Assembly: GCA_903951425.1 (NCBI GenBank)
Contig: CAJBBX010000133.1
Span: forward strand, 1-64,000
Reading direction: 5' to 3'
Source of the DNA: an uncultured Chthonomonas sp.
GTDB taxonomy: Bacteria > Armatimonadota > Chthonomonadetes > Chthonomonadales > CAJBBX01
DNA length: 64,000 nucleotides
Shown here: positions 3,241 through 42,826 of the stretch, in pieces
How the letters are laid out: every line of letters begins with the position of its first letter
Numbering within the stretch: position 1 is the first letter of the stretch
Position numbers and translations under genes: made by a program
The notes under the pieces: model-generated
Told to the model about the DNA's origin: nothing
The model's database searches: none
What the model saw: only the letters and a program-made list of their open reading frames with translations

Positions 3241-6114
3241 ATGCGATTTGGCAGGCCACTGGTCAGCGGCATGGTGACCATGGCTCTGGGCGCCGTGTTG
3301 GCGCCGGTAGGTGCGGAACCGTTCGACCTGGACCGCAAGCCCGATGCCATGGCGATGGCGGCTCCGGTGCGGACCAGTTGGGCTGAAGCGGCACGCCGTG
3401 ACGCTCAGCATGCAGCCGATGTGGCGGCCGGTCGAGTCCCCGCCAGGACAGGCTTGACCGAGGTGCCGTGGCGTGAGCCGGATGTCGAGCGTGAGGCAGG
3501 CGTGGCCGACGCCATCTACTTCGTGCCGCCGATCTTCGAGGGGCGGAGGTCCCGCCCTGAGCAGGAGGCGCCCCAGACGTTGGGCGTCAACTTCCTCGGC
3601 GTCGATATGCCTGGGGCCCGCTACTGGTGTCCACCGGACAGCAACGGCGCCATCGGCCCCAACCACTTCGTTGCGGCGTTCAACAATGCTGTCTGCATTT
3701 ACAGCAGGTCCGGCACCCTCATCTCCAACGTCTTTCTGGACAGCTTGCTCGGAGGTAGCCCTGCAAACGGCGCATTCGACCCGCGCATCATCTATGACCG
3801 CCGCTGCGGGCGCTGGTTCATCGCGGTGCTGGAGTTCGCCTCCAAGACGAACAACCGCGCCTTCATCGCCGTCTCCAGCAGTTCCGACCCCACAGGCGGC
3901 TGGTACTGGTATGCGCTGGGGATCGGCATGGCCAGCACCTTCAACGATTCCGAAACCCTGGGCACCGACGGCAACGGCGTCTACATGGGCTTCACGCGCT
4001 TCGGCGGGATCAACCCGGGTGCGGCGGTGTTGGCCGTGGCCAAGGACCCGGTGGTGGCGGGGGCCGGCATCACCTACTTCTGGTGGAACTCGCTGACCGA
4101 TCTCTACAGCACTCCGCAACCCGCGCTGAACGTCTCCGCCGCGGCCACCGATGCCCGGGCATGGATCGCGGCCTCATCGACCGCGGCACGGAGCGACGTC
4201 CGCCTGAGGCCGATCACCTGGAGCGAAACGACGCCCACCCTCGGGAGCACCGTGACCGTCTCCACCTCCGGCTATGGCACGCCTCCGGCTGCGAACGCCA
4301 ATGGCAGCAGCACGGACGTTTCGGTCGGCGATGATCGCATCCAGATGTCTTTCCTCCGCGATGGGCAGTTGTGGGTCTGCCGGAACGTCGGAGTGGACGC
4401 ATCCGGAGCCGCCGGCACCGACCGAACCGCCTGCGAGTGGATCCAGATCAACACCATCCCGGCCACGCCCATCAGGGTTCAGTCCGGGCGCGTCTACGAT
4501 CCCACAAACCCTGACCCGCGCATGTACTACTATCCCTCGCTTGCCGTCTCGGGCCAGGGCCACGTGGCCATGGGGTTCTCAGGCTCCAAGGGCACCGAGT
4601 GTGTGTCGGCCTACACCGCAGGGCGCCTGGCGACCGACGCCGCAGGCACAATGCGATCGATCATGACCATCAAGGGCGGCACGAACCCATACACCGTGCT
4701 GGTCGACGGCGTAAACAGGTGGGGCGATTACAGCTACACGAGCGTCGACCCCAATGACGACCAGACGATCTGGACCATCCAGGAGTACGCCTCGGCCACC
4801 AACACCTGGGGTACATGGATCGCGCAGCTTCTCGCGCCGGCGCCCAAGGCCAACGATCCCGGAGCCTCGGCGCTGCAGTTCACGTCAGGCGCGGGCTTCT
4901 TCGATCCCGGCGCCGGGTTCGCCAACCATGTGTCCGTGGCCCTCACCGGCGGCCTGCCCAACGGCATCTCGGGCGTGACGACCACTTACAACAGCCCCAC
5001 CAGCGTCACGGTGACCTCCAATGTATCGGCCACCGCCAGGCCCGACACGCGGAACATCGTTCTGACCAACCCCGACGGCCAGTCCACCACGGTCCTGGGC
5101 GGCCTTACGATCATCGGCAAGCCGGCATCCAAGCTCTCCGTGTACGATAGGACCGGCAACTACACCGACACCATCGCGCTGGAGGCGAACCTGTACCGGT
5201 CCAGCGACAACGCGCTGCTGACCGGCCGGACGGTGACGTTCAGCATCGCAGGCACCACCGTGGGTTCGGTCGCCACCAACGCTTCGGGCCTCGCCACGCT
5301 GAACTGGGCCATCACGTCCGGGGCCGCGTCACGGACCATCGGCGCCGCGTATGCCGGCGGCGTGGACTTCCTGCCTTGCTCCGGCACGGCCACGCTCACC
5401 TCCACGGTGCAGGGGACCAAGGTCTACGTGGTGGATCGCCTGAACGTGAAGATCAAGACCTACACGGTCCTGAAGGCCTACCTCTACACCACGGCCAATG
5501 CCATTCTTCCGGGGCGGGTGCTGAGCCTGTCGGTGGACGGAACCGCCCTGAACTCCTCAGCCACCAACAGCAGCGGGTACATCTCGCTCGGCTACACGGT
5601 GCCGGAGGGCGCCGGCGCCGGCATCCGCGTGATCGGCTCCGCGTGGGCCGGGAACGAGGGCTACTCGGCCTCAAGCAACAAGGGCAAGCTCGGCGTGGTG
5701 CAGGGGAGCCTCTATATATGGCCCTACGTGAGGACGGGCAAGCGGGGAATGGCCATCCCGCTCAGCGCCTACGTTCGGAGACTGCCGGACTACCTGATCC
5801 AGCCCGGCAAGAACATCGCCCTCAAGGTGAACGGTTCCATCATCGAGTCCGCTAAGGTCGCCGCAGACGGTTGGGCCATGGCCAAGTGGGCGATCCCGAT
5901 CAGCGAGCCGATGGTCGCGCATACGGCCACGGCCGAGTTCGGGGGCGATGCCTGGTACGCGGCAGTATCGGCCAGTACCACGGTCAACGTCGTGCATCAG
6001 GGTGTCCGACGTGCCCCGGCGCATAGGGAGCGGCGCCGGAGCCACCGAAGGCCTAGGGTCGTTCCCTTCGCTGCCAGTGTCGGCTACCATGGTGTGAGGG
6101 GGCTTCCGCCGTGA
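3241..6114 (+). CDS. Secreted multidomain protein with Ig-like repeats (paralog 2, C-terminal extension)
   Basis: This 957-residue tandem paralog of the gene at 195 has the same order: signal peptide, 'PPDSNGAIGPNH' domain, TIG-like segment, three Ig-like repeats. Similarity is highest in the Ig repeats and in blocks such as 'NRWGDYSYTSVDPN'. The TIG region is about 7 residues shorter. Paralog 1 ends with 'FNVVL' and a stop. Here the matching stretch reads 'VNVVH' and runs on for about 37 Arg/Pro-rich residues unlike the rest of the protein, which suggests loss of the ancestral stop codon. The new stop (6112-6114) overlaps the start of the Rpn remnant. A ggag Shine-Dalgarno precedes the ATG at 3241. 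Role unknown; surface or secreted. Confidence 0.82.
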   Translation: MRFGRPLVSGMVTMALGAVLAPVGAEPFDLDRKPDAMAMAAPVRTSWAEAARRDAQHAADVAAGRVPARTGLTEVPWREPDVEREAGVADAIYFVPPIFEGRRSRPEQEAPQTLGVNFLGVDMPGARYWCPPDSNGAIGPNHFVAAFNNAVCIYSRSGTLISNVFLDSLLGGSPANGAFDPRIIYDRRCGRWFIAVLEFASKTNNRAFIAVSSSSDPTGGWYWYALGIGMASTFNDSETLGTDGNGVYMGFTRFGGINPGAAVLAVAKDPVVAGAGITYFWWNSLTDLYSTPQPALNVSAAATDARAWIAASSTAARSDVRLRPITWSETTPTLGSTVTVSTSGYGTPPAANANGSSTDVSVGDDRIQMSFLRDGQLWVCRNVGVDASGAAGTDRTACEWIQINTIPATPIRVQSGRVYDPTNPDPRMYYYPSLAVSGQGHVAMGFSGSKGTECVSAYTAGRLATDAAGTMRSIMTIKGGTNPYTVLVDGVNRWGDYSYTSVDPNDDQTIWTIQEYASATNTWGTWIAQLLAPAPKANDPGASALQFTSGAGFFDPGAGFANHVSVALTGGLPNGISGVTTTYNSPTSVTVTSNVSATARPDTRNIVLTNPDGQSTTVLGGLTIIGKPASKLSVYDRTGNYTDTIALEANLYRSSDNALLTGRTVTFSIAGTTVGSVATNASGLATLNWAITSGAASRTIGAAYAGGVDFLPCSGTATLTSTVQGTKVYVVDRLNVKIKTYTVLKAYLYTTANAILPGRVLSLSVDGTALNSSATNSSGYISLGYTVPEGAGAGIRVIGSAWAGNEGYSASSNKGKLGVVQGSLYIWPYVRTGKRGMAIPLSAYVRRLPDYLIQPGKNIALKVNGSIIESAKVAADGWAMAKWAIPISEPMVAHTATAEFGGDAWYAAVSASTTVNVVHQGVRRAPAHRERRRSHRRPRVVPFAASVGYHGVRGLPP

Positions 6115-7389: not shown

Positions 7390-9786
7390 TCACTCTTCGT
7401 CTTCCAGGATCTGCCACTCGTGGATGCCGCTGGCATAGCCCTCCTGCTGCTTCAACGTCAAGCGAAGCGACTTGGTGGCGACGGTCGAGAAGCGGACCTC
7501 CGCCCACCGGTCCTTGAGCACAGGGAACTCGGCCGCCTTCACCACGGTCCACGTACCGTCCGGCTGCAGGGCCTCCACCAGCCAGCTCGCCGGGATGCGG
7601 CACTCGCCGCGGCCGGTGTCGTCGAACCAATAGACACGGACCCCGTTCACGCGCACGGGGCTGGTCCACGTGTACTGCGCCCACTCGGAGCCGCCCTTGT
7701 GCGGCCACCAGTGGCAGAGCGCGGCAGGCTGCTCGCCGGAGGACTTGGGCTCAATGCCGTCGTGGATGCCCCTCGGCTGGGCGTTGCCGCTGACGTAGGA
7801 GAGGCTGACTTTGGCCGAAACCTCGGGGCCGCCGGCCGTGGGCGCTCCCGGCGCCAGAGGCAACCAGACGCGCATGGCCCCTGCCTCTCGGTTGTCCCAG
7901 AAGGCGTAGGGGATGGCGGTCACGTGGGTCGGATGGGGCTTGCGGGCGGACTGGTAGAGCTTGGGGCCCCACTCGGACTGGCCGGCGGTGTAGGCGGTGC
8001 CCTCCAACGTCGTGATGCCTCCAAAGAGGTCGGGCCGCTCCTTGGGCTGGAGCTGCGCCTCCATGGGCAGGTAGAGGTCGGCCACCGGCGCCTTCTGGTC
8101 CACGGCCTCCAGGCAGTAGACCAGCGGGCCGCGCTGCACGGCAGCCAGGCCTCGGTTGGCCGTGACGTTCGGGTTGGCCTCCACGCGGCGGGCGGGCATG
8201 TCCAGCGTCAGGGTCACCACGTCACCGGGCTTCCACTGCCGCCGAACGACCACGTAGCCGTTCTCCAAGGGCCACCGGGTGGGCGCGCCCGCCGAGATGG
8301 ACCACTTCTCGCACCAGGACGGGATGCGCAGGCGCAGCGAGAAGGTGCGGGGCGCCTCGGGCTTCAGGGTGAGGGTCACCTTGCCGTCCCAGGGGTAGTC
8401 GGTCTTCACGTCCACCTTCACGGCGCCGGCGCCCACCTTGGTGTTGACGCCGCCCTGGATGTAGAGGTTCACGGTCAGGCCGTCGGTGTCGGTGGCGTAG
8501 GCATAGCTTCCCAGCGACGAGAGGGTCCGGGCCACGTTGGGCGGGCAGCAGGCGCAGCCGAACCAGTCCGACCGGTGGTGCGTGCCCATGCTCTCCAGCG
8601 GGTTCACGTAGAAGAAGCGCTTGCCGTCCACCGAGACGCCGTCCAGCACGCCGTTATAGAGCGATGTCTCCACGATGTCGGCGTACCTGGCGTCGCCGGT
8701 GAGGAGGTTCATGCGGTGGTTCCAGAGGGCCAGGGCCACGGAGGCGCAGGTCTCCTGGTATGCAGTGAGGTTGGGCAGGTCGTAGTCAGCCGTGAAGCCT
8801 TCGTTATGCGACGACGGCCCGATGCCGCCGGTGATGTAGGTGTTCTTGCGGCTGGTGTTGCGCCAGACGCGGTTCACCATATCCAGCAGGCCCTGGTCGC
8901 CGGTCTCCGCCGCCACGTCCACCACGCCGGACATGAGGTAGGCGGCCCGCACGGCGTGGCCCTTGATGTTCTTGTGCTCGCGGATCGGCACATCGTCCTG
9001 GAAGTAGGCGCCGTCGTACTCCGCGTCAGGAGTGCGATGCTCCACGGCGAAGAAGTGCGAGCCCCGGGTGTTGACGAAGTAGTGGGCCATGTCGAAGTAG
9101 GCCTTGTTGCCCGTGGCGCGCCACAGCTTCACGAGGGCCAGCTCGATCTCGGGGTGGCCGCAGTAGCCGGGGCGCTTGCCGGGCCCTTCGCCGAAGGTGG
9201 CAACGAGATGGTCGGCGTACTTGGTGGCGATGGTCAGCAGCGTGCGCTTGCCGGTGGCCTGGAAGTGGGCCACGGCTGCCTCGAAGAGGTGTCCGGCGCA
9301 GTAGAGCTCATGGTTGTCGCGCAGGTTGGTGAAGGTCTGGTCGGGAGCGTTCACCTGGTACCAGGTATTCAGGTATCCGTTCGGCCTCTGGGCGGCGGCT
9401 ATCCGGGCGATCATGCCGTCGATGCGGGCCTCCAGCGCCGGGTCGGGATCGGTGGCCAGCGAGTAGGCCACGGCCTCCAGCGTCTTGTAGAGGTCCGAAT
9501 CCATGAAGACGGGGCCGGAATAGCCCTCCCGCTTGCCCTGCGCCGCAAGGTCGAAGTTGCGCAGGTTGTTGGTCTTCTCGAGCTGGTCCAGGCTGTGCTT
9601 GAGCGAGACCTTGCGGTTGGTGTCCCGCCGCGGCTTCCAGAACCGATCCGTGATGCTGACCTGGGTGAACGGTACTTCCGAGAGCTTCATGCCTTTCCTT
9701 GTCTGCGCGGCAGCCGGCACCGAGAGGGCTGCCAGGTGGGCCGCCAGGCAGATCGCCAGTGCGGCGGGAACGCAATGTCCTATCAT
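7390..9786 (-). CDS. GH127 (DUF1680) beta-L-arabinofuranosidase-like enzyme
   Basis: The 798-residue protein begins with a signal peptide ending near 'VPAAAQT'. The body is the (alpha/alpha)6-barrel GH127 family: 'RPNGYLNTWY', 'HELYCAGHL', and the zinc/cysteine site. In characterised HypBA1 the site is Glu338, Cys340, Cys417 and Cys418, with Cys417 as nucleophile. Here the matching residues appear to be E345 and C347 ('ETC') and C413-C414 ('CCPPN'). A C-terminal discoidin-like segment (~690-798) follows. Arabinofuranoside removal from arabinan or glycoprotein is the family's known role; the true substrate is unknown. First gene of a probable two-gene operon with the esterase. A gaggga Shine-Dalgarno precedes the ATG. 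Confidence 0.9.
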   Translation of the reverse strand: MIGHCVPAALAICLAAHLAALSVPAAAQTRKGMKLSEVPFTQVSITDRFWKPRRDTNRKVSLKHSLDQLEKTNNLRNFDLAAQGKREGYSGPVFMDSDLYKTLEAVAYSLATDPDPALEARIDGMIARIAAAQRPNGYLNTWYQVNAPDQTFTNLRDNHELYCAGHLFEAAVAHFQATGKRTLLTIATKYADHLVATFGEGPGKRPGYCGHPEIELALVKLWRATGNKAYFDMAHYFVNTRGSHFFAVEHRTPDAEYDGAYFQDDVPIREHKNIKGHAVRAAYLMSGVVDVAAETGDQGLLDMVNRVWRNTSRKNTYITGGIGPSSHNEGFTADYDLPNLTAYQETCASVALALWNHRMNLLTGDARYADIVETSLYNGVLDGVSVDGKRFFYVNPLESMGTHHRSDWFGCACCPPNVARTLSSLGSYAYATDTDGLTVNLYIQGGVNTKVGAGAVKVDVKTDYPWDGKVTLTLKPEAPRTFSLRLRIPSWCEKWSISAGAPTRWPLENGYVVVRRQWKPGDVVTLTLDMPARRVEANPNVTANRGLAAVQRGPLVYCLEAVDQKAPVADLYLPMEAQLQPKERPDLFGGITTLEGTAYTAGQSEWGPKLYQSARKPHPTHVTAIPYAFWDNREAGAMRVWLPLAPGAPTAGGPEVSAKVSLSYVSGNAQPRGIHDGIEPKSSGEQPAALCHWWPHKGGSEWAQYTWTSPVRVNGVRVYWFDDTGRGECRIPASWLVEALQPDGTWTVVKAAEFPVLKDRWAEVRFSTVATKSLRLTLKQQEGYASGIHEWQILEDEE

Positions 9787-9972: not shown

Positions 9973-12900
9973 ATGAAGCGATCTGCGGGGTTTGCCGGTG
10001 CGGCGTTGGTGGCCGCCACCGCGCTTGGGCTGGCCGTGCTGGCCGGCGCGGGTCCGGATGAGGGGCTCATCAACGTGGGCCTGACGTCGGCGGGCGCCCG
10101 CGTGGAGGCTGAAAGCCAGTTCAGCCCAGCCCACGCCGGGAGCAACGCCGCCGATGGGCGCATGGAGTCGGGCAACGGCTGCTGGTACTCGCGCGACCAG
10201 AGCAAGCTCCCCGTGGCCCTCACCTTCCGCTTCGCCCAGGCCGAGGAGGTCCGCCGCATCGTCGTCTGGCAGGCCCGCTGGACCGGCAACATGTACCACA
10301 CCCGCGACTTCGCGCTGGAGACCTCGCAGGACGGCAAGGCCTGGTCGCGCGTGACCGCCGGCTCGCTGGCCGATGACAACGAGGCCCGCGCCGAGTTGCC
10401 CGTCAGCTTCAAGGCGCCCTGGGCCCGCATCGTGGTCCTAAGCTCGTACAACGACTTCCAGACCTGCGGCCTGGCCGAGGTGGAGTTCATGGCCCGGCGT
10501 CCGCTGGCGTTCGGCACGCCCGCCGCGCGGCTGGACAGCGTCGACGCCGCCTGGTCGCTCCCCTTCTGCGGCCTGACGCTGGCGGGCACGGACCGCGGCT
10601 CTCAGGCGGCGGCGACGCCCGGCTCCTTCCTGGCCGACCTGCCCGCAGGCGGCGCGGCCGAACTGGGCATCCCCGTGGCCGCCGCCGAGCATGCCTTCAG
10701 CGTGTCGGGCAAGCTCGAAGCAGCTGGCGGACGCGTCGATGCGGCCCTCTACCAGGGTGGCAAGCTGCTCTGGGAGGCCAAGGGCGCCGAGGGTGCGGCC
10801 CGTGTGGCGGCTCAGTGCGAGCCCGGCGCGGGCGCCCTGCGGATGGTCCTGCGTGCGGCGGGCGGCCCGGTCTCGGCGAAGCTCTCCGGCTGGTCCGCCA
10901 CCATGGGCGCGCTCAGCGTGGCGCTGCCGCTGGCGCCGCCTCCGGGGTCGAACTATCTGGCGCGGACGCCGGTCTACCGCCCCGCCATCGAGCGCGCGCT
11001 CATCGAATGGGACTGGCGGCAGCAGGACGGCCTGGGCACGCCCAACGAGCCGGTCACCCCGGCGGCGGCGGCGGCAAAGGCGGTGGCAAGGCTGGAGCGG
11101 CTGGCCAAGGGTGCGGAGGACTCGGGCACGGAGGCCCGAGCCACCAGTAGAGCCCAGGGCAGCAGTACAGCCCAGAACCCCCAACATGCTCGAGCCACCT
11201 ATCAGGCCTGCGGCGCCGCGCTGGCCGCCGCCAAGCGCAGCGGCTCTGACGAAGCCTACGAAGCCGCCTACCTCCGCGCGCGCTGGGCTTCGCGGCGGCT
11301 CCTGCTGACCCGCGCCGGCGACCGCATCCGGCCGCTCGTCTTCGCGAAGCAGGCCCCCGGCGTCTTCAGCCACCAGCTCACGCAGTACTACGGCCGCTAC
11401 GCACGACCCGGCGGCGGCATCGTCACGCTGGCAAACCCCGGCCAGGCCATGGCCGTACGCTCTCTCACCGGCGCCCTAGGCAAGGGCAGCGTCATGCAGC
11501 CCGACGTCTCATGGGACGGGAAGCGCATCCTCTTCACCTTCTGCGCCACGGACTCCGACCCGGTCGACACCGTGCGGGGCCAGTACGGCCGCTATTACAG
11601 CCTCTACGCCGTGAACGCCGACGGCTCCGGCCTCCGGCGCCTCACCAGCGGCCCCAACGACGACTTCGCGCCCCGCTGGCTGCCTGACGGCAAGTACGTC
11701 TGCGTCTCCACTCGCCGCGGCGGGTGGCACCGTTGCGGCACGCCGGGCTGCGAGAACTACACCCTGGCCGTGGCCGCCGGCGAGGGCGCCGTGCCCGTAC
11801 CCATCTCCTACCACGAGACGCAGGAGTGGGACCCCGCCGTGCTGCATGACGGCCGTATCGTCTACACGCGCTGGGACTACGTGGACCGCCACCCGGTCTT
11901 CTACGAGCACCTCTGGACCACCAATCCCGACGGCACCCGCGCGGCCATCCTCTCGGGCAACGCCACCTTCAACCCGGTGGGCATCTGGGAGCCGCAGGCC
12001 GTGCCGGGGTCGAACCTCATCATGGCCACCGCCGCGGCCCACCACGCCATGACCGCCGGCTCCGTCATCCTGGTGGACCCGACCAAGGGGCCGGACAGCA
12101 AGTCGGCGCTCATCCGCCTGACACCCGAGACGCCATTCCCCGAGAGCGAGGCGACCGTGACGCCCAACTGGCGAGCCACCATGCCCGGCACCACGCCGCT
12201 GGAGACCGTGGAGAGCCGCCGCTGGCCAGGCCACTGCTATCGGAGCCCCTTCCCGCTGGCCGAGGACCTCTTCCTGGCCTCCTTCAGCTACATCGAGCTA
12301 CTGGGCGAGCCGCGATGCAACGCGCCGGGCATGTTCGGCCTCTACCTCTGCGACGCCGCCGGCAACCGCGAGATGCTCTACCGCGACCCCAACATCTCGT
12401 CGGTCTGGGCCATGCCGCTCCGGCCCCGGCCCATGCCCCGGCGCATCTCGTCGCCCCTGGCCAAGTCCATGGGTGACGAGGGCCTCATGCTGCTGCAGGA
12501 TGTCTACCACGCCACCCCCGCGCTTCCCCGGGGAAGCGTGAAGTCCCTGCGCATCGTCCAGATCCTGCCCAAGTCAACCCCCGGCAAGGACCTGCCCGCC
12601 GTGGGTGTGCCCAGCGGCTCGCCGGGCAAGCAGGTGCTCGGCACCGTCCCCGTGGAGGCCGACGGCTCGGCCTACTTCCGCCTGCCCGCCCGCCGCGAAG
12701 TGGCCCTGCAGGCGCTGGACCATCGGGGCATGGCCGTGCAGACCATGCGCAGCGGCATCTACGTGCAGCCGGGCGAGCGGGCCTCCTGCGCCGGGTGCCA
12801 CGAGCGCCGCACGGCGGGGCCCCCGGCCCGCGCGCCCATGGCCTCGCGCCGCGCACCCTCGAAGATACTGCCTGGTCCCGACGGCTCCAAGCCCATGAGT

Positions 12901-13281
12901 TACCCCATCCTCGTGCAGCCGGTGCTGGACAAGCTCTGCGTCTCGTGCCACTCCGGACCCAAGCCGGGCGGCGGCGTGGAGCTGACGGGCAGGATCGACG
13001 GCCACTACACAGCCTCGTACAACGCCATGTCGGCCCGCGTGCCCTACTCCGACATGAACAACTCGGAGCCCGTCAGCCAGCCCGGACGCTACGGCTCTAC
13101 CGGCAGCAGCGTGATGAAGCTGGTCCTGGCGGGCCACGGCGGGGTCAAGGCGAGCCCGGCCGACATCGAACGGCTGGCGACCTGGATGGACGCCGGCGCC
13201 ATCTTCTACGGCACGTTCGATAGGGAGCAGCAGGCGCTGCAGCAGGCGGGAGGTCGCCTCACCAAGCCCGTGCTGGAGTAG
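9973..13281 (+). CDS. HzsA-related secreted protein: discoidin + PD40 repeats + two CxxCH haem sites
   Basis: This 1102-residue protein has a signal peptide (1-~27), a discoidin/F5-8-type domain (~35-175), and a low-complexity stretch near 370-405. TolB/PD40-like beta-propeller repeats follow ('MQPDVSWDGKRILF', 'FAPRWLPDGKYV'). The C-terminal part resembles the middle domain of the hydrazine synthase alpha subunit found in many non-anammox planctomycete and armatimonadete proteins. It carries CAGCH at 939-943 and CVSCH at 989-993, both c-type haem motifs. Such proteins are common but uncharacterised; real hydrazine synthesis is not implied, because the other subunits are absent. A periplasmic or extracellular redox role is inferred. 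A gaggt Shine-Dalgarno lies before ATG 9973. Confidence 0.82.
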   Translation: MKRSAGFAGAALVAATALGLAVLAGAGPDEGLINVGLTSAGARVEAESQFSPAHAGSNAADGRMESGNGCWYSRDQSKLPVALTFRFAQAEEVRRIVVWQARWTGNMYHTRDFALETSQDGKAWSRVTAGSLADDNEARAELPVSFKAPWARIVVLSSYNDFQTCGLAEVEFMARRPLAFGTPAARLDSVDAAWSLPFCGLTLAGTDRGSQAAATPGSFLADLPAGGAAELGIPVAAAEHAFSVSGKLEAAGGRVDAALYQGGKLLWEAKGAEGAARVAAQCEPGAGALRMVLRAAGGPVSAKLSGWSATMGALSVALPLAPPPGSNYLARTPVYRPAIERALIEWDWRQQDGLGTPNEPVTPAAAAAKAVARLERLAKGAEDSGTEARATSRAQGSSTAQNPQHARATYQACGAALAAAKRSGSDEAYEAAYLRARWASRRLLLTRAGDRIRPLVFAKQAPGVFSHQLTQYYGRYARPGGGIVTLANPGQAMAVRSLTGALGKGSVMQPDVSWDGKRILFTFCATDSDPVDTVRGQYGRYYSLYAVNADGSGLRRLTSGPNDDFAPRWLPDGKYVCVSTRRGGWHRCGTPGCENYTLAVAAGEGAVPVPISYHETQEWDPAVLHDGRIVYTRWDYVDRHPVFYEHLWTTNPDGTRAAILSGNATFNPVGIWEPQAVPGSNLIMATAAAHHAMTAGSVILVDPTKGPDSKSALIRLTPETPFPESEATVTPNWRATMPGTTPLETVESRRWPGHCYRSPFPLAEDLFLASFSYIELLGEPRCNAPGMFGLYLCDAAGNREMLYRDPNISSVWAMPLRPRPMPRRISSPLAKSMGDEGLMLLQDVYHATPALPRGSVKSLRIVQILPKSTPGKDLPAVGVPSGSPGKQVLGTVPVEADGSAYFRLPARREVALQALDHRGMAVQTMRSGIYVQPGERASCAGCHERRTAGPPARAPMASRRAPSKILPGPDGSKPMSYPILVQPVLDKLCVSCHSGPKPGGGVELTGRIDGHYTASYNAMSARVPYSDMNNSEPVSQPGRYGSTGSSVMKLVLAGHGGVKASPADIERLATWMDAGAIFYGTFDREQQALQQAGGRLTKPVLE

Positions 13282-25657: not shown

Positions 25658-25944
25658 GTGAGGCTCCTCGTCGGAATATAGCGAGCACCGCAACCGAGGC
25701 GAACGCTCAAGGCTCCAGGGCGCTTGCTCCCCTGGTTCTCTCCGTTCAGCATTACCAAGATGACGGCCGGACGGGAGAACTACCCATCGGCCCAGCTATC
25801 GCCTAATATGACACGCGGGCCGCGGTGCGCGCAAGCCGGGTTGCGGGGCAGATATGGTGAAAGGGCGAACGCCCGCCGCTGCCATCCGCCGCAGGTAGAA
25901 TGCCTGTGAGCGCCTGTACGGCGCACAGACCGTGGAGGCTGCCG
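25658..25944. other. Divergent intergenic region
   Basis: No gene is seen between the broken SBBP gene and the glycyl radical enzyme. A poor ATG at 25900 is in frame with the latter but lacks a ribosome site. No convincing promoter pair was found. Confidence 0.4.
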
Positions 25945-28173
25945 ATGTCGCCGGCGAACCAAGCCGAACTCCTCTTCTCCTTCAGCCGGGCCCATGCGTG
26001 GGCCGAAGCGCGGGGCATGGGTCACGACGAGGCGCTGGGCTGGGCCTGGGCCGAGGAGTGGCGGGCTCGAACGCCCGTGGTCGTGCGCGAATGCCTGCTC
26101 GCCGGCATGCCCGGCTCGCGGTCGCTCGTCCGCATGGGCGTCGGCGGGCTCACCTGCGACGGCGAGCCGCCGGCCGACCTTTCTGGCGCCGAGCTTAGCG
26201 AGGCCCACGCCACCATCGCCCTCTGGATGCCCCGCACCACCGGGGTGCGCTTCGCCGAGGCGATCCGGGACCGGTTCACGCCGGAAGAGCGCGAGGCCAT
26301 GGACGAGCCCTCGTTCGGCTGGGGCGGAGGCTGGGGCGGCCACGCGATCCTGGGCTACGAGGAGCCCCTGCGGGACGGCATCGTCGCCCTCGTCGCCCGA
26401 CTGGAGGCCGCCGAGGAGGCCGCGCGGTCGGCCGGAGCCGACCCCACTGAACTTGACTGGCGGCGCGGCACGCTGCATGTGGCCCGCGCCATCGGCGACT
26501 TCATCGGCGCTCATGCCGATCTGGCCGAGGCGCTGGCAGCGGAGGCCACCGATCCCGATGACGCGCGCCACTTCGCCGAGATCGCCGGCACCTGCCGCCG
26601 CGTCTCGCGAAGCCGCGCACGCGACATGCGCGAGGCCGTGCAGCTCCTCTGGATGCTCCACGTACTCGACGAGACCGACTCGCCGGGCCGCATCGACCAG
26701 TACCTGTACCCGTTCCTCGCCGCCGAGCCGGGCGAGACCGACTGCCAACGCGCTACGTCCGCCATGCCCGTGCTGGATGCGCTCTGGGGGCGGTTCGTGG
26801 CCTGCCGCAGCTGGAACGTCTGCTTGGGCGGCCAGACCGCCGACGGCCGCGACGCCGCCAACACCCTCTCATTCGCCTTCCTCGACCTGCAGGCCAAACA
26901 CCGCCGCGAGGCGCCGAACCTGAGCGTGAGGCTCTTCGCGGGCTCTGACCCGGCCCTGCGGCGACGCTGCACCGAGGTGATCGCTCTGGGCGCCGGCATG
27001 CCCGCCCTGTACAATGATGATACGCTGGTCCCCGCCCTCACCGACCTCGGCATCCCGCTGGAGCACGCCCGCAACTACGCCATGAACGGCTGTATGCAGG
27101 TGGACATCCAGGGCATGAGCCACATGGGCCTGGAGGACGGCGAGCTGAACCTGGCCAAGTGCCTTGAGCTGGCATTGCACCAGGGCCGCAGCCCCGTGAC
27201 CGGCAGTCAGGTCGGGCCGAAGACGGCTCCGCTCCCCGAGATCACGAGCCTGGAGCAGCTCAAGGAGCAGTTGCGCCTTCAGATCGAGCACGCCACGCGG
27301 CTCTTCACCCGGCGGGCCAACATCTTCCAGGAGGTGATCGCCGCGAGCGCGCCACACCTCTACCGCTCCCTCTTCCTGGCTGACTGCATCAGCCGCGGGC
27401 GCGACATGAAGCGCGGCGGGACGCTCTACAACCATGGCCAGTTCTTGACCGAAGGCGTGGCCAACACGGCCGACGCGCTGGCCGCTATCCGGATGCTGGT
27501 CTTCGAGGAGCGCTCACTCAAGCTGGCCGGTCTCGTTGAGGCGCTGGACCGCGACTGGGCCGGCGACGAGCCGCTGCTGCAGCGCATCCGCACCTGCGCG
27601 CCGCGCTTCGGTAACGACCTGCCGGAGGTGGACGCCCTGGCCGCCGAGGTGTTGGGCTGGTACTTCAACTGCCTCAACACGCTGACCACCTGGCGCGGAG
27701 GGCGCTACTCGGGCGGTCTTTGCACGTTTACCCGCGCACCGGGCTACGGCAAGCACCTGGCCGCCGGGGCCGACGGCCGGCGTGCCGGCGAGACTGTGGC
27801 CGACTCCTGCGGGGCCGCGCCGGGCCGCGACCGCGTGGGCCCCACCGCCCTCCTCCGCTCTGCGGCGCGCCTGCCTCAGCGGCTGGCCACCAGCGGCTTC
27901 TGCCTGAATCTGAAGCTCTCGCCCAGCGCCCTCCAGCCCGAAGACGCCGGCTCCATCGACCGCGCCACGGGCCTCTTCGCCGGCTACTTCGGCCTGGGTG
28001 GCCAGCAGCTCCAGGTGAACGTGGTCGACGCCGACGCCCTCCGCGCCGCCCAGGCCGACCCACAGGCGCACGCCGGGCTCATCGTGCGGGTGGGAGGCTT
28101 CTCGGCGCGTTTCGTTGCGCTCGATCGCGACCTGCAGGATGCCATCATCGCCCGGACGGAGCACGGGTTGTAG
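25945..28173 (+). CDS. Glycyl radical enzyme (pyruvate formate-lyase-like), divergent active site
   Basis: ATG 25945 is preferred over 25900 because gtggagg lies just upstream. The 742-residue protein is a glycyl radical enzyme. The C-terminal motif 'RVGGFSARF' with Gly718 matches RVxG[FYW], followed by 'LDRDLQDAIIARTEH' as in the family. The thiyl cysteine is C383 in 'NYAMNGCMQ', preceded by 'PALYNDDTL'. In diol dehydratases and choline lyase this loop is C-x-E, with Glu acting in catalysis; here the position is Gln385. No radical-SAM activating enzyme is encoded in the window, although activation is required in known members. The substrate is unknown. It precedes a GHL6-like hydrolase by 89 bases. 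Confidence 0.85.
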   Translation: MSPANQAELLFSFSRAHAWAEARGMGHDEALGWAWAEEWRARTPVVVRECLLAGMPGSRSLVRMGVGGLTCDGEPPADLSGAELSEAHATIALWMPRTTGVRFAEAIRDRFTPEEREAMDEPSFGWGGGWGGHAILGYEEPLRDGIVALVARLEAAEEAARSAGADPTELDWRRGTLHVARAIGDFIGAHADLAEALAAEATDPDDARHFAEIAGTCRRVSRSRARDMREAVQLLWMLHVLDETDSPGRIDQYLYPFLAAEPGETDCQRATSAMPVLDALWGRFVACRSWNVCLGGQTADGRDAANTLSFAFLDLQAKHRREAPNLSVRLFAGSDPALRRRCTEVIALGAGMPALYNDDTLVPALTDLGIPLEHARNYAMNGCMQVDIQGMSHMGLEDGELNLAKCLELALHQGRSPVTGSQVGPKTAPLPEITSLEQLKEQLRLQIEHATRLFTRRANIFQEVIAASAPHLYRSLFLADCISRGRDMKRGGTLYNHGQFLTEGVANTADALAAIRMLVFEERSLKLAGLVEALDRDWAGDEPLLQRIRTCAPRFGNDLPEVDALAAEVLGWYFNCLNTLTTWRGGRYSGGLCTFTRAPGYGKHLAAGADGRRAGETVADSCGAAPGRDRVGPTALLRSAARLPQRLATSGFCLNLKLSPSALQPEDAGSIDRATGLFAGYFGLGGQQLQVNVVDADALRAAQADPQAHAGLIVRVGGFSARFVALDRDLQDAIIARTEHGL

Positions 28174-28262
28174 CCTGCGACCGCCCGAACGGGACCGCAA
28201 CCCGGGAGTGCGCCGTTGACCCGGCTCGGCCGGGCCGTGAGAGAGGGGAGCGTTCACCGACC

Positions 28263-30506
28263 ATGCACAAACTGCCGCGAAACGCCCTCCGGGGCCGCGC
28301 CTGGAAAGGGGCACTTGGCGCCATGGCGCTGCTAGCCTTCCTGCCGGCATGCGCCGGCGCCGCTCCTGGCACAGGAACTGGTTCGGCAAACGGAACTCGG
28401 GAGCCCTGGTTCACGCGCGCGCTGGTCGGCATGGAGATCGGCCCGACCGGCGCCCAGTTCGGGCATAGCGATCCCAAGGACGCCCGGTACTGCGCCGACT
28501 TCGATGGGCGCGAGTTGGTCCGCCGCGCGGTGGCCGCACGGAGCGAGTACCTGGTGGTCTGGGTGCGGGATGGAGACTACGCCTACCACGACTCGAAGCT
28601 GCTGCCCAAGGCGCCCGGCCTTGGACCGCGGGATCCGCTGCGGGAAGCCGTGGACGAGGCCCGCCGCCACACGCTCCCGATCATCGCCTACTGCGTGATG
28701 CAGCAGGGCGGCCACTACCTGAAGGCCCATCCGGAGTGGGAGATGCGCGGGCCTGACGGGCAACCCATCGGGCGGTTCTGCCTCAACTCCGGCTACCTCG
28801 AGGCGATGAAGCAGATCGTGGCAGAGGAGCTCACCTACGGCATTGCCGGGTTCCATATCGATATGCTGGACCAGGGCTTCGGGCCGCCCTACGGCTGCTG
28901 GTGCCCCGCCTGCCGCACCCAGTTCGAGCGCGAGTTCGGCCACCCGATGCCCGCAGGCGCCACCTGGGATGCCGCATGGGATGATATGCTCGAGTTCCGC
29001 TACCGGTCCAGCGAGCGATTCGAGAAGGCGCTGGCCGCCCACATCAGGGCGCTGGACCCGGCCGCCACGGTGGACTTCAACTACCACGGCAACCCGCCGT
29101 TCTCGTTTGAGGTGGGCCAACGCCCCGTGCAGCACGCGGGCAACGGCGACTTCATCACGGGGGAGACCGGCGTCTGGGGCTTCAGCGCCCTGACGGTAGG
29201 CCTCAACGCCGAGTTCTACCGCGCGGCTGTGCCGCACCAGCGCGTTCAGGTCGCCATGCAGCGGGGCGTCCGAATGTACCATGACCAGACCACGCGTCCG
29301 CTGAACGACATGCGCTGGGAACTGATCACGCTCCTCGCGCATGGGGCCTTCGCCACGATGGTGGACAAGACGGCCTTCGACGGTCGGCTGGACCCCGTCG
29401 CCTACGAGCGGATCGGCGCGGCATTCGAGGAGGCGCGCGCCAAGCGAGCGCATTTCGGGCACCCCGCCGTGGCGGAGGTGGGCCTCTACTTCAGCAGCCG
29501 CACCCGTGACTGGCTGGCCCGCGACAGACCGAACGACTACTTCCAGGGCTACTTGGGCGCCCACAAGGCGCTGGCCTACGAGCATATCCCGTGGGGCGTC
29601 GTGCTGGACGAGAACGCTACCGCCGCGTCGCTGCGGCGGTTCCCGGTCATCATCGTGCCGAACGCGGGCATCGTCAGCGCGGCCGAGGCCGAGCGGCTAC
29701 GCCAGTACGTCGAGGAGGGCGGTCGCCTGGTAGTCACGGGCTTGTCCGGCTGTTTCGGTCGCCGAGGTGAGCCGCTTCAAGCGTCCACCCTCGAGGCCCT
29801 CATCGGCGCACGGCTCGTCCGCAAACTGGGCACCGTCGACAACTGGGCGCGTTTCTCCTCCGCCGACCTGCGGGGCCTGGGCCTCAGCGAGAACTCTCTC
29901 CGGGCCGACTGGCCTTTCCTCGTGAAAGGGCCGGCAGCCGTCTTCGCGCCGACGACGGCGAGCCCTATCGGCGACCTGATGGCCCCCTACCGGACGACGC
30001 GCCAGACGCAAGGCATGGAGGGCGCCGAGTGGCCCATGAGCGCCGACGCGACGGTGGGCCCGGCGATCCTGTCCAACGCCCTGGGGCGGGGCCAGGTCCT
30101 GTCATTCGCATGCTCACCCGACTTCGCTGTGGCCGGCGAGCACGCCGTCGTCGAGGCCCGAAAGCTCCTGGCCGCCGCCGTGCGGCGCCTGAACCCGCGG
30201 CCGCGGGTCCGGATTACGGCGCCGGCCAACGTGGAGGCTATCGTGACGGACGACCCGGTTAAGCGGACGATCCGGGTGCACCTCATCGGCTACGACTCAC
30301 CGCCTCAGACGATGCCGACACGGGAGCGGCCCTACGTCCTGCCTGCCCTGGTGGAGGATGCACCCATGTTCCGGGCAGTCGTGGAGCTGCAGTCGCCGCC
30401 GCGCAGCGCGAAGGCGCTCAACCCGAGCACAGACCTGAAGCAGGTCGGCGCCCGGACGGAGGTCACCGTCAGCGACATTCACGAGGTGATCCTGCTTCGC
30501 TACTGA
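28263..30506 (+). CDS. Exported GHL6 / GH42-like putative glycoside hydrolase
   Basis: ATG 28263 opens a signal peptide ('GALGAMALLAFLPACAGAA'); 747 residues. The N-terminal TIM barrel contains 'GIAGFHIDMLDQG' and 'CWCPACRTQFEREFG', typical of the hypothetical glycosyl hydrolase 6 group, and 'FITGETGVWGF'. A beta-galactosidase trimerisation-like (GH42M) domain follows from about residue 400 ('FPVIIVPNAGIVSAAEAERLRQYVEEGG'). The C-terminal beta-sandwich ends 'VTVSDIHEVILLRY'. Members are often annotated as beta-galactosidase-like or alpha-fucosidase-like but are mostly uncharacterised. It is downstream of the glycyl radical enzyme on the same strand. Confidence 0.72.
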   Translation: MHKLPRNALRGRAWKGALGAMALLAFLPACAGAAPGTGTGSANGTREPWFTRALVGMEIGPTGAQFGHSDPKDARYCADFDGRELVRRAVAARSEYLVVWVRDGDYAYHDSKLLPKAPGLGPRDPLREAVDEARRHTLPIIAYCVMQQGGHYLKAHPEWEMRGPDGQPIGRFCLNSGYLEAMKQIVAEELTYGIAGFHIDMLDQGFGPPYGCWCPACRTQFEREFGHPMPAGATWDAAWDDMLEFRYRSSERFEKALAAHIRALDPAATVDFNYHGNPPFSFEVGQRPVQHAGNGDFITGETGVWGFSALTVGLNAEFYRAAVPHQRVQVAMQRGVRMYHDQTTRPLNDMRWELITLLAHGAFATMVDKTAFDGRLDPVAYERIGAAFEEARAKRAHFGHPAVAEVGLYFSSRTRDWLARDRPNDYFQGYLGAHKALAYEHIPWGVVLDENATAASLRRFPVIIVPNAGIVSAAEAERLRQYVEEGGRLVVTGLSGCFGRRGEPLQASTLEALIGARLVRKLGTVDNWARFSSADLRGLGLSENSLRADWPFLVKGPAAVFAPTTASPIGDLMAPYRTTRQTQGMEGAEWPMSADATVGPAILSNALGRGQVLSFACSPDFAVAGEHAVVEARKLLAAAVRRLNPRPRVRITAPANVEAIVTDDPVKRTIRVHLIGYDSPPQTMPTRERPYVLPALVEDAPMFRAVVELQSPPRSAKALNPSTDLKQVGARTEVTVSDIHEVILLRY

Positions 30507-30728
30507 GGCGGCGCCGGCCGGTGCGCGAAACATCCCCGAATGTGCCATACTAAGCGTGACGTACCTCCCCAGTGCATCGCTGCTTCGTGTCGCACCCCGG
30601 TTTGCGCCCTCAGCTCGCTCGAGGCGTCCCATTGGACAGCCCCGACCTTTGCACCCAACTCGAAGCGTCCGAAGCCGGACCTGCGCCTCTGCGCGGGGCT
30701 TGGATCGCTTCAGGAGACTTCTCCCAAC
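30507..30728 (+). promoter_or_regulatory. Long untranslated leader before DEAD-box helicase gene
   Basis: About 220 bases separate the preceding stop from ATG 30729. The frame open through most of it is low-quality and lacks a ribosome site, so it is treated as non-coding. An aggag Shine-Dalgarno sits near 30712. Long structured leaders are common upstream of cold-induced RNA helicases, but no conserved box was identified here. Confidence 0.35.
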
Positions 30729-37826: not shown

Positions 37827-40266
37827 TCACTCCCCCCAGACCCGCGCCAGCACGCCCTCGATCTTCCTCTCGAACCGCGCGATCAACTCCCGGCTCGCCG
37901 CCACCAGCGCCTGCTCCGCCTCGATCTCAGCAACGATCGACTGCTGCGTGGCGAGAGGAGGGAGGGGGATCATGATGCTCCGAAGCGAGGTCAGCGACAC
38001 GGTCTTCTGCGCCGCCCCTGTCGCCAGCGCATCGGCCTGGCTTAGTACCGACGCCGATCCCAGTACAGCGTAGGCAAACTCACTCAGGAGTCTTGGGCTT
38101 GGCCGCACCAGCGCAATGTGTCGCTGGAAGCAGAACGACATGTCTGTAGTCACAAGGACCGGAATGCCGTAGGATCCTGTTACCGTGTATAGCACGTCGC
38201 CGGCCTTCGGGCGCCGGGTCGGCTTGAGCTCAGCGTAGTACGCCTCAGGCACATAGAAGGTCGCACCAAAGTCGATGGTCCGGTCAGCCGTGATGTTCGA
38301 GATCGTCACGAACGGAACGCCATGGGCAGCCTTCGGCGGTGGTTGGTGATCTCCATCGCTGATGGTCTCACAGACGTCGTCAAGCCGCACCATCGGCCAC
38401 GCCGGGTCCACGTCGATGTGCGGGCGGTAGTTCTCCACCACAGCCCGCGCGCCGTCGATTACCTTCTGGTAGCCCTCGATCTCCGCTACAATCGCACGCT
38501 GGACGTCGAGCGGCGGGAGGGGGATGCGGAATGCCGCGAAGCTTCTCCTGGTTCAGCTTTGGAACGGTCACGCCCGTGATATACGGGGAGAGGTCGGCTT
38601 CGTTCAGTATCTCGATCAGGTACCGGCTGACTACTAACTCACTGATCGGCCGAAGCACATGCGCATGGTTATTAACCCAGACCTTGCCTTCTACCGCGAA
38701 CGCTGTCCTGTCCCCAGAACCCCATTTCGCACCATCCTCGCCTACGAGGACCAGCGGCTCGTCGAACAGGTATCCATCCACGTGATCGAGAAGGCCGGAC
38801 GCACCGTAGTACGGGAATGGACCAGCCTTGCGGTCACTCCGTGTGATCGGCCGTCGGAGGTAGTCAAGGACCTCGACGATGTCGCCAAGGGCCACATGGT
38901 TGTACGCCGAGTGCCTTGTACTGCCGTCCCGATACCTCTCCCCGCTCAGGTTGTAGTCGCCGTTGGCGGCCACCCGGGACTTCTCCACCACGTGGCCCAG
39001 CGTGGTCGGCGTCTCCTTGACTGGCTCGCCCTCGCGTAGCCGGTGCAGGTACTCGGCCAGTTCGGCCGCCGCCGTCGGCAGGTCGTTCTTCTCGATCTCG
39101 CGGCGCGGGGCGCCCAGCCCGAAGCCGTCGTTCTCCACCTTCAGGAAGGCGATGGTGTCGGCCCGGCGGGCCAGGGCCTTGTCCAGGACCAGGATCGACG
39201 TCTTCACACCCGAGTAGGGGTTGAAGACGCCGGCGGGCAGCGAGACCACCGCCACCAGGTACTCCTCCACCAGCATCTTGCGGAGCTGCCTGTAGGCGCC
39301 CTGGCTCTGGAAGATGATCCCCTCCGGCACGATGATGGCGGCGCGGCCCCGGGCCGTCAGGTGCTCCGCCATGTAGTCCACGAAGAGCACCTCGCTCCGC
39401 TTGGACTGCACCGAGAAGCGGTCGTGCGGGCGGATGCCCCCCTTGGGCGACATGAACGGCGGATTGGCCAGGATGATGTCCGCCACCTCGTTCCAGCGCT
39501 CCTGACTCGTCAGGGTGTCGTACTCGTGGATGTGCGGGTCGACGAAGCCGTGTAGGTAGAGGTTCACCAGGGAGATGCGGACCATGTCCGGCGAGATGTC
39601 GTAGCCGGTGAAGTTGCGGGCGAGGGCGCCGTTCTCGTCGGGCGTGAGCGGGACGGCGCCTTCGCCGCTGTGTGCGTTGCGGATATGCTTGTAGGCCGAG
39701 ATGAGGAAGCCCGCCGTGCCGCAAGCCGGGTCCAGCACCGTCTCGTCCTTCTTGGGGTCCACCACCTCCACCATGAAGTCGATGATGTGCCGCGGCGTCC
39801 GGAACTGGCCGGCGTCGCCCTGGGAGCCGAGGACCGAAAGCAGGTACTCGAAGGCGTCGCCCAGCCGCTCGCTGTGGTCGTACGTGAACTCGTCGATGGT
39901 CTTCAGGAAGGCGCGCAGCGTCTCCGGGTCGCGGTACGGCAGGTACGCGTTCTTGAAGATCTCGCGGAAGAGGAGCGGGATGCCGGGGTTCTCGGGCATC
40001 TTCGCGATGGCCTCGGCATAGAGGTTCAGCGTGTCGTGCCCGCCCAGGCCGGCGCGCATCAGCTTGGGCCAGCCGTACCGCTCGAACTCGCCGGCGAAGA
40101 AGGTGCGCCTCCCGCCCCACTCTTCGGCCTCGGCGTCCATGTCGTCCATGAACTTGTAGATGAGCGCGATGGTGATCTGCTCGACCTGGCTCTTCGGGTC
40201 CGGCACTTTCCCGACCAGGATGTCCCGTGCGGTATCGATTCGTCGCTTGGTATCGGTGTCTAGCAA
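37827..40266 (-). pseudogene. Fused type I methylase-specificity gene (HsdM-HsdS), frameshifted
   Basis: From TTG 40266 (aggag upstream) the protein is an N6-adenine methylase of type I systems: N-terminal helical domain, SAM motif 'DPACGTAGFLISAY', catalytic 'NPPF'. After about residue 480 it continues directly into a specificity target-recognition domain. At 38530-38531 one extra base shifts the frame; without it the text reads 'RGIRIPLPPLDVQRAIVAEIEGYQKV', the standard HsdS spacer helix, then a second recognition domain ending at 37827. The repaired product is about 812 residues: M and both halves of S in one chain. As sequenced, translation ends at 38380 with only the first recognition domain intact. 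A start inside the second half (GTG 38441) has no ribosome site. Confidence 0.82.
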
Positions 40267-40279
40267 CGGGTGGGCTCCT

Positions 40280-42826
40280 CTAGTGTGCGAACTGGTTCAG
40301 CGAGACGTAGTCCTTGACGTAATCGGGCACCGCATTGCGGAACCGCTCCGGCACGGCACGGTAGTCCTGCGTGTTGAAGACCGGGTTGGTGGCCAGGACG
40401 CTGTAGGTCCGCTTGTCGATGGTGTCGCGGACGACGCCGTCGGTGACGTAGGCCTTGAAGAAGGTCTTGATGGCCGGGACGCTCCTGGGGTCCGAGGGCC
40501 GGCAGTCGGCGAGGAACTTGGCGAACTCCTCCTCCAGCAGCTCGTCGCGGGACTTGAACCGCGTGATGCGGCCGAAGACCTTCTCCAGAATCTCGCGGAG
40601 GCTGATCCGGCGGTCCACGGCGGCCGCACGCCGCAGCTTGTCCAGCGTGTAGTTGGCATCGGGCCTGCCCAGCACCTCCCGCCGCACATGCTCCACGGCG
40701 TGGTCCCACTGCCCGGCTTCCACCGCCCTGGCGACGACCTCGTTCGCCCGCACGGTCTCCTCGAACTTCTCGAAGAACATCCGGTCGATCTTCATGCCGT
40801 CGAGGCCCACGGCCTCCTCCTTGACGGACGCGAGGATATCGGAGCCGAGGTGGTTGTAAGCGCCCTCGGGCGGGAGCGGGGGCGGATCCGGGCCGATAGG
40901 AGGCTTAGGTCTCTCCTTTGGCTCCACCGGCAGGGCGATCACCTCGTCGTACTGGAACTCCTCCTCGAAGTAGCGGCAGTTGGCGAAGAAGTCAAAGAGC
41001 TTGAACGCGGTCTTGTGCGGGCGCTCCACCTGCTCCTCCAGCTCCTTGTCGCGGAGCTGATCGAGGAAGTTGTGCTTCCGGGTGCCGCGCCCCTTGATCT
41101 GGATGAAGTCGGTGGGCGAGAAGATGGGGCGGAAGAGGCCCAGGTTCAGCAGGTCGGTGCAGTCGTAGCCCGTGGTCATCATCCCGACGGTGACGCAGAC
41201 TCGGGCCTTGCTGGTCTTGTAGGCCGCCAGGACGTTGGCCGACCCCAGCAGGTTGTTGTTGGCGAAGTTAATGGCGAACTGCTGGGCGTCGGCGATCTGT
41301 GAGGTCACCTGCACTGCGAAGTCCGAGTGGTACCTGCCGGGGTACATCAGGTCTGCCAGCTGGTTCAGCAGTTGCGTCAGCTTGGAGGCGTGGTGCTGGC
41401 TCACCGCGAAGATGATCGACTTGCCCATCTCGGCGCTCACGGGGTCGCGCAGGGCGTGCTGCAGGAAGGTCTGGCAGAAGAGCTTGTTCGTGGCGTCCGA
41501 GAAGAAGCGCCTCTCGAACTCGCTCTTCTTGAAGGCCTCCTGGCTGTCCTCGCCCTCATCATCGGTGAATGTGACGATGAAGCCCTCCTCGGAGAGCAGC
41601 GCGGTCGTGACCTCGGTGCGCACATCGACCACCGTGGGGTTGACGAGGAAGCCGTCCCTCACTCCGTCCAGCAGGGAGTAGCGGAAGGTAGGCTGGCTGC
41701 TTTCGCAGCCGAAGGTGCGGTAGGTGTCGAGCAGGATGCGCCGCTCCGCCTCGCGCGGGTCGCGGCCGGTCTGCCCGCCCTGCTCGAAGCGCTTCAGGTA
41801 GTCGCGCGGCGTGGCCGTGAGGCCCAGTTTGTAGCCCACGAAGTAGTCGAAGACCGCCCTCGCGTTGCCGCCGATGGAGCGGTGGGCTTCGTCCGAGATG
41901 ACCAGGTCGAAGTCGGTAGGCGAGAAGAGGCGCTGGTACTTGTTGCCGGCCAGTAGCGACTGGACCGTGGTGACCACGATCTCGGCCTTGTTCCAGTCAT
42001 CGCGGTTCTGCTTGTAGATGACGGTCTGGTAGTCGGAGGCAAGCAGGTCCTTGAAGGACTTCTGGGCCTGGTCCTCCAGCTCGAGCCGATCCACCAGGAA
42101 GAGTACGCGGCGGGCGTTGCCGGTGCGCAGGAAGAGCTTGATCACCGCGGCGGCAGTGAGCGTCTTGCCGGTGCCGGTGGCCATCTCGAAGAGGAAGCGG
42201 TCGTTGCCCTCCTTCACCGAGGCCTGCATCGCGGCGACCGCCCGAAGCTGGTAGGGCCGCAGGAAGCGCAGCTTGTTGGCCTGGATCAAACCGGGCCGCT
42301 CCGCCTCGCTCAGCCACGCCGCCTCGGAGCGGTACCCTGGGCGCTGCGTGAGCACGATGAAGTCGTCGCCCACCTTCTCGGCGACCAGCTTTGCCGGGTC
42401 CGGCGTCGTCTTGCTGTAGCCCACAACGGACTCGGGGGTAGGGAAGGCGGTGACGACGTGCGGACTGCCGCGCTCCAGATCCCAGAAGTAGTGGAGGTTG
42501 CCGTTGGAGAGCATGACGAAGCGGCAGTTCAGCGACTTCGCGTACTTGCGGGCCTGCTCCTTGCCGACCAGCGGGTTCTTGTCCTGCGCCTTGGCCTCCA
42601 GGACGATCAGCGGGAAGCTCCTGCTGTCCAGCAGCAGGAAGTCGACGAAGCCCTTGGAGCCCTTCTCAAACTCCTCGCCCATGGCGTCGAGGTCGGTCGT
42701 CTTGAGCGTGACGCTGGGCTCCAGCCGGATGTTGGCCGGCGCGTCGCCGCGCGGGAAGAAGCGCCACCCGGCGGCCTCAAGCAGCGTGTTGATCTTGACG
42801 CGGGCGCTCGCCTCTTTGTCTGCCAC
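40280..42826 (-). CDS. hsdR: Type I restriction enzyme R subunit
   Basis: The 848-residue protein has an N-terminal PD-(D/E)xK nuclease ('FVDFLLLDSRSFPLIVLEAKAQ') and a superfamily 2 translocase with 'MATGTGKTLTAAA', 'LVISDEAHRSIGG', 'GLTATP' and late motifs 'TVGMMTTGYDCTDLLNL' and 'QIKGRGTR'. A C-terminal helical domain follows. It translocates DNA and cleaves unmodified DNA in complex with HsdM and HsdS. The start is GTG 42826 with ggagg upstream. First gene of the defence operon; the fused hsdM-hsdS gene starts 13 bases after its stop. Confidence 0.93.
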   Translation of the reverse strand: MADKEASARVKINTLLEAAGWRFFPRGDAPANIRLEPSVTLKTTDLDAMGEEFEKGSKGFVDFLLLDSRSFPLIVLEAKAQDKNPLVGKEQARKYAKSLNCRFVMLSNGNLHYFWDLERGSPHVVTAFPTPESVVGYSKTTPDPAKLVAEKVGDDFIVLTQRPGYRSEAAWLSEAERPGLIQANKLRFLRPYQLRAVAAMQASVKEGNDRFLFEMATGTGKTLTAAAVIKLFLRTGNARRVLFLVDRLELEDQAQKSFKDLLASDYQTVIYKQNRDDWNKAEIVVTTVQSLLAGNKYQRLFSPTDFDLVISDEAHRSIGGNARAVFDYFVGYKLGLTATPRDYLKRFEQGGQTGRDPREAERRILLDTYRTFGCESSQPTFRYSLLDGVRDGFLVNPTVVDVRTEVTTALLSEEGFIVTFTDDEGEDSQEAFKKSEFERRFFSDATNKLFCQTFLQHALRDPVSAEMGKSIIFAVSQHHASKLTQLLNQLADLMYPGRYHSDFAVQVTSQIADAQQFAINFANNNLLGSANVLAAYKTSKARVCVTVGMMTTGYDCTDLLNLGLFRPIFSPTDFIQIKGRGTRKHNFLDQLRDKELEEQVERPHKTAFKLFDFFANCRYFEEEFQYDEVIALPVEPKERPKPPIGPDPPPLPPEGAYNHLGSDILASVKEEAVGLDGMKIDRMFFEKFEETVRANEVVARAVEAGQWDHAVEHVRREVLGRPDANYTLDKLRRAAAVDRRISLREILEKVFGRITRFKSRDELLEEEFAKFLADCRPSDPRSVPAIKTFFKAYVTDGVVRDTIDKRTYSVLATNPVFNTQDYRAVPERFRNAVPDYVKDYVSLNQFAH

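Follow-up and report, generated by a model that had tools for sequence, protein, structure and literature searches.

A clade of glycyl radical enzymes from several phyla with a conserved glutamine in place of the catalytic glutamate, and probably with a reaction or substrate new to the family

The window, a stretch of 64,000 nucleotides from an uncultured Chthonomonas sp., carries on its forward strand a gene for a glycyl radical enzyme (GRE) at 25945..28173. The frame is open, with in-frame ATG codons at 25900 and 25945 and a stop codon ending at 28173, and from the second ATG it encodes 742 amino acids that match the Pfam families PFL-like (PF02901, 1.1e-109) and Gly_radical (PF01228, 1.8e-21). 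The translation confirmed both radical elements of the original prediction: the thiyl radical cysteine Cys383 in NGCMQ (27091..27093, plus strand), which the alignment pairs with Cys433 in glycerol dehydratase and with Cys489 in the choline TMA-lyase CutC, and the glycyl radical site Gly718 in RVGGFSARF (28096..28098, plus strand), which lies in the Pfam Gly_radical domain and has the RVxG[FYW] form of the C-terminal loop of the superfamily. Both residues are invariant in the GREs that we aligned. An AlphaFold2 model built with 19 aligned sequences (mean pLDDT 89, pTM 0.90) showed the GRE barrel, with the radical cysteine on a mid-protein finger loop. The gene product is an oxygen-sensitive glycyl radical enzyme. 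It shares 88-89% protein identity with its counterparts in two sister species, and the gene is under purifying selection across the genus (dN/dS 0.15-0.19).

Downstream of the GRE lies a putative secreted glycoside hydrolase (28263..30506, plus strand), a prediction for the neighboring gene that Pfam bore out with matches to GHL6 and GH42M. It is the one gene of a ~2.3 kb species-specific segment (28176-30520) missing in both sister species, in which the leader of a DEAD-box helicase begins ~25 bases after the GRE stop codon. Because neither sister has the hydrolase at this site, we rejected it as an operon partner and did not take it as evidence of the function of the GRE; within the genus we found no conserved functional partner gene. 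The original prediction was also right that there is no shell-protein partner: no PF00936 match was found in the whole genome, while two control genomes did match, and a microcompartment association was rejected. Elsewhere the window encodes a 1102-aa protein (9973-13281, plus strand) with an HZS_alpha domain (hydrazine synthase alpha middle domain, 2.4e-24) together with F5/8 type C and PD40 domains, and, on the minus strand (38380-42826), restriction-modification genes for an N6 methylase that carries a specificity domain and for a helicase of the ResIII/HSDR type.

The residue two after the radical cysteine sets the window GRE apart. Instead of the CxE motif of the eliminases it reads, as the original prediction had noted, C383-M-Q385, and Gln385 (27097..27099, plus strand) aligns with the catalytic Glu435 of glycerol dehydratase. 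Two residues further on, Asp387 (27103..27105, plus strand) aligns with Gln437, so that the pair at C+2 and C+4, which is Glu/Gln in the diol dehydratases and in CutC, is Gln/Asp here. In the motif HMGLEDGE (residues 393-400; 27121..27144, plus strand) Glu397 stands where glycerol dehydratase has Asp447, and Cys593 where it has Tyr640, whereas His133 (26341..26343, plus strand) is the retained equivalent of His164. Both sister species also have Gln at position 385; since the same residue recurs in two species under purifying selection, it is not a sequencing error, and a pseudogene was likewise rejected.

A scan of ~85,000 species genomes returned as nearest relatives the two genus mates together with two contigs from Poribacteria and two from gut Clostridia, all six sharing the loop NGC[MSN]Q[VI]DIxGxSHMGL. 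We then scanned genomes with a degenerate DNA pattern for NGCxQ[LIVMF]DIxG, using the reversed pattern as a control, which over all the scans matched once, in the Poribacterial phylum. Of the 291 Armatimonadota genomes scanned, 3 carried the pattern, each of them from the window genus; it also occurred in 13 of the 394 genomes from the Clostridial order, in 3 of 85 from the Poribacterial phylum and in 4 of 388 from the phylum to which a Victivallales genome belongs, where three of the matches read as full GREs; among 398 genomes sampled from the Clostridial phylum only the starting genome matched. The C-x-Q enzymes thus span three species of the window genus of Armatimonadota, Poribacteria, gut Clostridia and a fourth phylum centred on the Victivallales genome, a sparse and patchy distribution that suggests horizontal transfer. 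For a tree we aligned 106 GREs and removed the Cys-loop columns. In this quick tree, computed without bootstrap, the 20 C-x-Q proteins formed one group with an SH-aLRT of 99. Within this group the branch of the Armatimonadota pair is long (1.17), and its enzymes may act on a different substrate from those of the Clostridial branch. The seven solved GREs included for reference, whose sequences were taken from HMMER alignments and covered the aligned parts only, fell outside. The consensus loop NGC[MSN]Q[VI]DIxGxSHxGLED is fixed in the clade, which is almost certainly a distinct GRE subfamily. The branch apparently had not been described before: our literature searches found no published C-x-Q GRE and no paper connecting GREs with Armatimonadetes, and earlier similarity networks may show the cluster without comment.

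Other departures from the usual motifs were also seen. A second natural C-x-Q GRE of Armatimonadota (L026:736-3276, G057 contig 19), with the loop GCGQVYPYG, was rejected as a clade member since the tree placed it outside on a long branch, and it is apparently separate. GREs with C-x-W (L068:7502-9778, in contig 156 of the window genome, and L040, L115, L116 and L119; loops GCNWTALPG and GCHWSAIPG) and one with C-x-D (L056) fall in two places of the tree. Four others (L035, L039, L092 and L099) have the Gly loop RIGGYLVP and not RVxGYSA. A recent variant of the superfamily that had gone unnoticed is that of the aminoacyl radical enzymes, in which Ala, Ser or Thr replaces the radical glycine (PMC11528403); the window GRE differs from these in keeping Gly718, its change being in the Cys loop.

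Conservation within the clade was then compared with that in the 85 other natural sequences of the alignment. Position 385 is Gln in 20 of 20 clade members and in one of the 85 others, 76 of which have Glu, a contrast that excludes chance as an explanation for Gln385. Asp387 is likewise invariant in the clade (20/20, against 2% of the others), and His133 is found in every clade member and in 95% of the rest. Ten residues are invariant in the clade and rare elsewhere (R288, W290, N381, Q385, D387, H393, E397, E400, Q499 and R597); for N381, Q385, D387, H393, E397 and E400 the clade letter occurs in at most 6% of the other rows. One member from the fourth phylum reads HSGLEDGE in place of HMGLEDGE. 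DSSP assigned a strand to residues 385-388 of the model, an alternation from which Q385 and D387 would face the same side and the C+4 Asp would point to the substrate. The invariant Asp387 and Glu397 suggest that the catalytic acid of the C-x-Q clade has been relocated, to which we give nearly an even chance; the conservation would also fit a structural role for these residues.

Regarding activation, the predicted lack of a radical-SAM activase in the window held for the whole 88-kb contig, on which the best TIGR02494 match was a 24-bit, ferredoxin-like one (48197-48382). The genome search that the original prediction had proposed yielded a single GRE activase above the TIGR02494 cut-off (333 bits), on contig 145, where we found no GRE. 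This genome is estimated to be 100% complete and gave nine GRE matches: the window GRE, one C-x-W enzyme and otherwise C-x-E enzymes. The same arrangement of one activase above the cut-off and 9-10 GRE matches was seen in each genome of the genus (this one and those of the two sisters). In a Clostridial relative (L049) three C-x-Q GREs, one of them at 7515-9677, stand in tandem immediately behind an activase gene (4322-5218) whose product is 43% identical to that of the window genome. Since each genome of the genus has one activase for its 9-10 GRE matches, and these kin have an adjacent one, we rejected the lack of a nearby activase as a sign of novelty. As the only activase gene above the cut-off lies on a contig where no GRE was found, it would have to act in trans if the nine GREs of the genome are active. 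Several Armatimonadota carry 9-16 GRE matches per genome, and one activase for nine GREs is the ratio in the window genus. Myxococcota, Smithella and Deltaproteobacteria also showed natural activase-GRE fusions, in which one ORF of 1103-1158 aa (L055, L057, L058, L059 and L060; e.g., L058:8540-12013) encodes both a GRE activase (CxxxCxxC) and, C-terminal to it, a GRE with CVEP and RVAGYC or RIAGYC.

The neighborhoods of the relatives gave a hint about the substrate. Two GFO/IDH/MocA dehydrogenases and an aldo-keto reductase end ~55 bases before the GRE of a Poribacterial relative (L177), one MocA dehydrogenase lies 43 bases upstream of a Clostridial one (L174), and a short-chain dehydrogenase (SDR) lies 18 bases upstream of the GRE at L166. 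A weakly scoring MFS transporter was found just downstream at L050. The neighbors of most relatives are unrelated and vary between loci, and an all-against-all BLAST of the Clostridial loci found no general conserved neighbor. Because dehydrogenases adjoin the GRE at three loci, and because the GREs PflD and YbiW offer a precedent in acting on sugar derivatives, the 1,5-anhydrohexitol 6-phosphates (PMC12441222), it is reasonable to guess at a substrate of the sugar or cyclitol type. That the window GRE is a dehydratase of a sugar-like compound is accordingly a tentative assignment, which we rate somewhat below an even chance. PflD and YbiW (entries 8id0 and 8id7 belong to this group) are similar in fold to the model (Z 39-41); PflD and 8id0 have the CxE motif and sit on a tree branch separate from the C-x-Q clade.

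The reading that we favor, while holding it to be slightly less than evenly probable, is that the window gene encodes an active C-x-Q GRE with a dehydratase-type fold that is activated in trans and carries out an elimination on a polyhydroxylated substrate with a relocated acid. The single radical-SAM activase of the genome would most likely install the radical on Gly718, from where it would move to Cys383, and the resulting thiyl radical would take a hydrogen from a polyhydroxylated substrate resembling a sugar or a cyclitol. An elimination, most likely of water, would follow. Gln385 would only hydrogen-bond the substrate, the acid/base carboxylate would not be at C+2, and the proton chemistry would come from Asp387 at C+4, from Glu397 or from both. 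In the eliminase HypD, a trans-4-hydroxy-L-proline dehydratase with the same fold as the window GRE, the CxE glutamate was proposed not to be the base and Asp278 to be the acid/base (PMC7077986). The broader proposal, of a multi-phylum GRE subfamily in which the carboxylate has shifted from the C+2 Glu to the C+4 Asp, accompanied by a corresponding Glu where glycerol dehydratase has Asp447, and whose substrate is new to GREs, is possible and distinctly less than evenly likely. Taken more generally, either the reaction of the window GRE or its substrate is probably new to the family.

The strongest alternative, which we consider unlikely, is that the clade does not perform eliminations at all but rather C-C bond formation or cleavage, decarboxylation, isomerisation or epimerisation, having lost a C+2 Glu that it did not need. 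Pyruvate formate-lyase and the alkyl- and benzylsuccinate synthases are without the CxE Glu and do C-C chemistry, and two arginines private to the clade, R288 and R597, would suit a carboxylate or a phosphate. Against this, both the fold and the position of the His are closest to those of the diol dehydratases. Foldseek gave as nearest solved folds the B12-independent glycerol dehydratase 1r8w (TM 0.88) and the propanediol dehydratases 9rco, 5i2g and 5i2a, with TM scores of 0.85-0.89 (0.86-0.89, at 27-28% identity, for 1r8w, 9rco and 5i2g); the whole fold, the Cys, the Gly loop and the His164 equivalent are common to these enzymes and the window GRE. A second structure comparison ranked an Archaeoglobus GRE (2f3o, Z 46.5) first, with the diol dehydratases at Z 41-42 (rmsd 2.4-2.7, 27-30% identity) and the succinate synthases lower, at Z 33-38; pyruvate formate-lyase ranked lower too. 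Moreover, the Cys-Cys pair of pyruvate formate-lyase is missing, the window GRE having Gly382-Cys383, and TIGR01255 scored 104.6 bits against a cut-off of 994.

Somewhat less probable still is a conventional mechanism like that of the diol dehydratases, in which Gln385 would substitute for Glu in binding and the ketyl radical would be deprotonated by water or by His133. The retained histidine and the glycerol dehydratase fold agree with it. Yet the change from Glu to Gln inactivates two other eliminases, in the mutants HypD E436Q (PMC7077986) and IslA E470Q (PMC8473560), which makes standard eliminase chemistry through residue 385 unlikely; HypD, unlike the natural C-x-Q enzyme, still requires its Glu436. 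That Asp387 and Glu397 are fixed along with Gln385 also argues for a rearranged site rather than a simple swap.

We regard it as very improbable that the window GRE belongs to a characterised family and merely happens to have Gln. It does align over its full length with several solved GREs, at 260-325 bits. But its best NCBIfam score, among equivalogs and the PFL2-3 subfamily, was 408 bits against a cut-off of 678, and all the GRE equivalogs scored at most one third of their cut-offs (e.g., 253 vs 1050 for CutC and 317 vs 1100 for HypD) and under half for four relatives, which likewise reached no curated cut-off. No solved GRE in the tree lies inside the clade, so the window GRE does not fall within a characterised subfamily that already has Gln. 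The sole C+2 Gln among the solved sequences whose loop we read is that of 5fav, a laboratory mutant (E491Q) of CutC, an enzyme of the same fold that in its wild type has Glu491 and a C+4 Gln where the window GRE has Asp. One Clostridial clade member scores about equally against CutC and the diol dehydratases. The suggestion of a new specificity class is supported: the enzyme clusters with natural C-x-Q enzymes of four phyla, outside every characterised GRE that we placed and far below the curated equivalog scores. Two of the arguments first given for it, from the absent activase and from the glycoside hydrolase, fail. Least credible of all is an inactive or decaying GRE whose dead site is kept by chance or as a structural or regulatory partner, for although the Glu-to-Gln mutants of HypD and IslA are dead and the genus has no conserved partner gene, the low dN/dS, the intact Cys, Gly loop and His, the tandem triplication behind an activase at L049 and a motif fixed across several phyla all speak against it.

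The C+2 Glu is regarded as a conserved catalytic residue of the GRE eliminases, and its change to Gln kills those tested. That the role of this residue can move would be shown by a conserved lineage in which C-x-Q is natural and goes with a compensating pattern of acids, and such a lineage provides a clear way to test the ketyl-radical mechanism. The motif also supplies a simple annotation rule for genes that otherwise match only general PFL-like models. The C-x-Q clade probably marks a new anaerobic metabolic reaction, common to gut Clostridia, Poribacteria, Armatimonadota and a fourth phylum.
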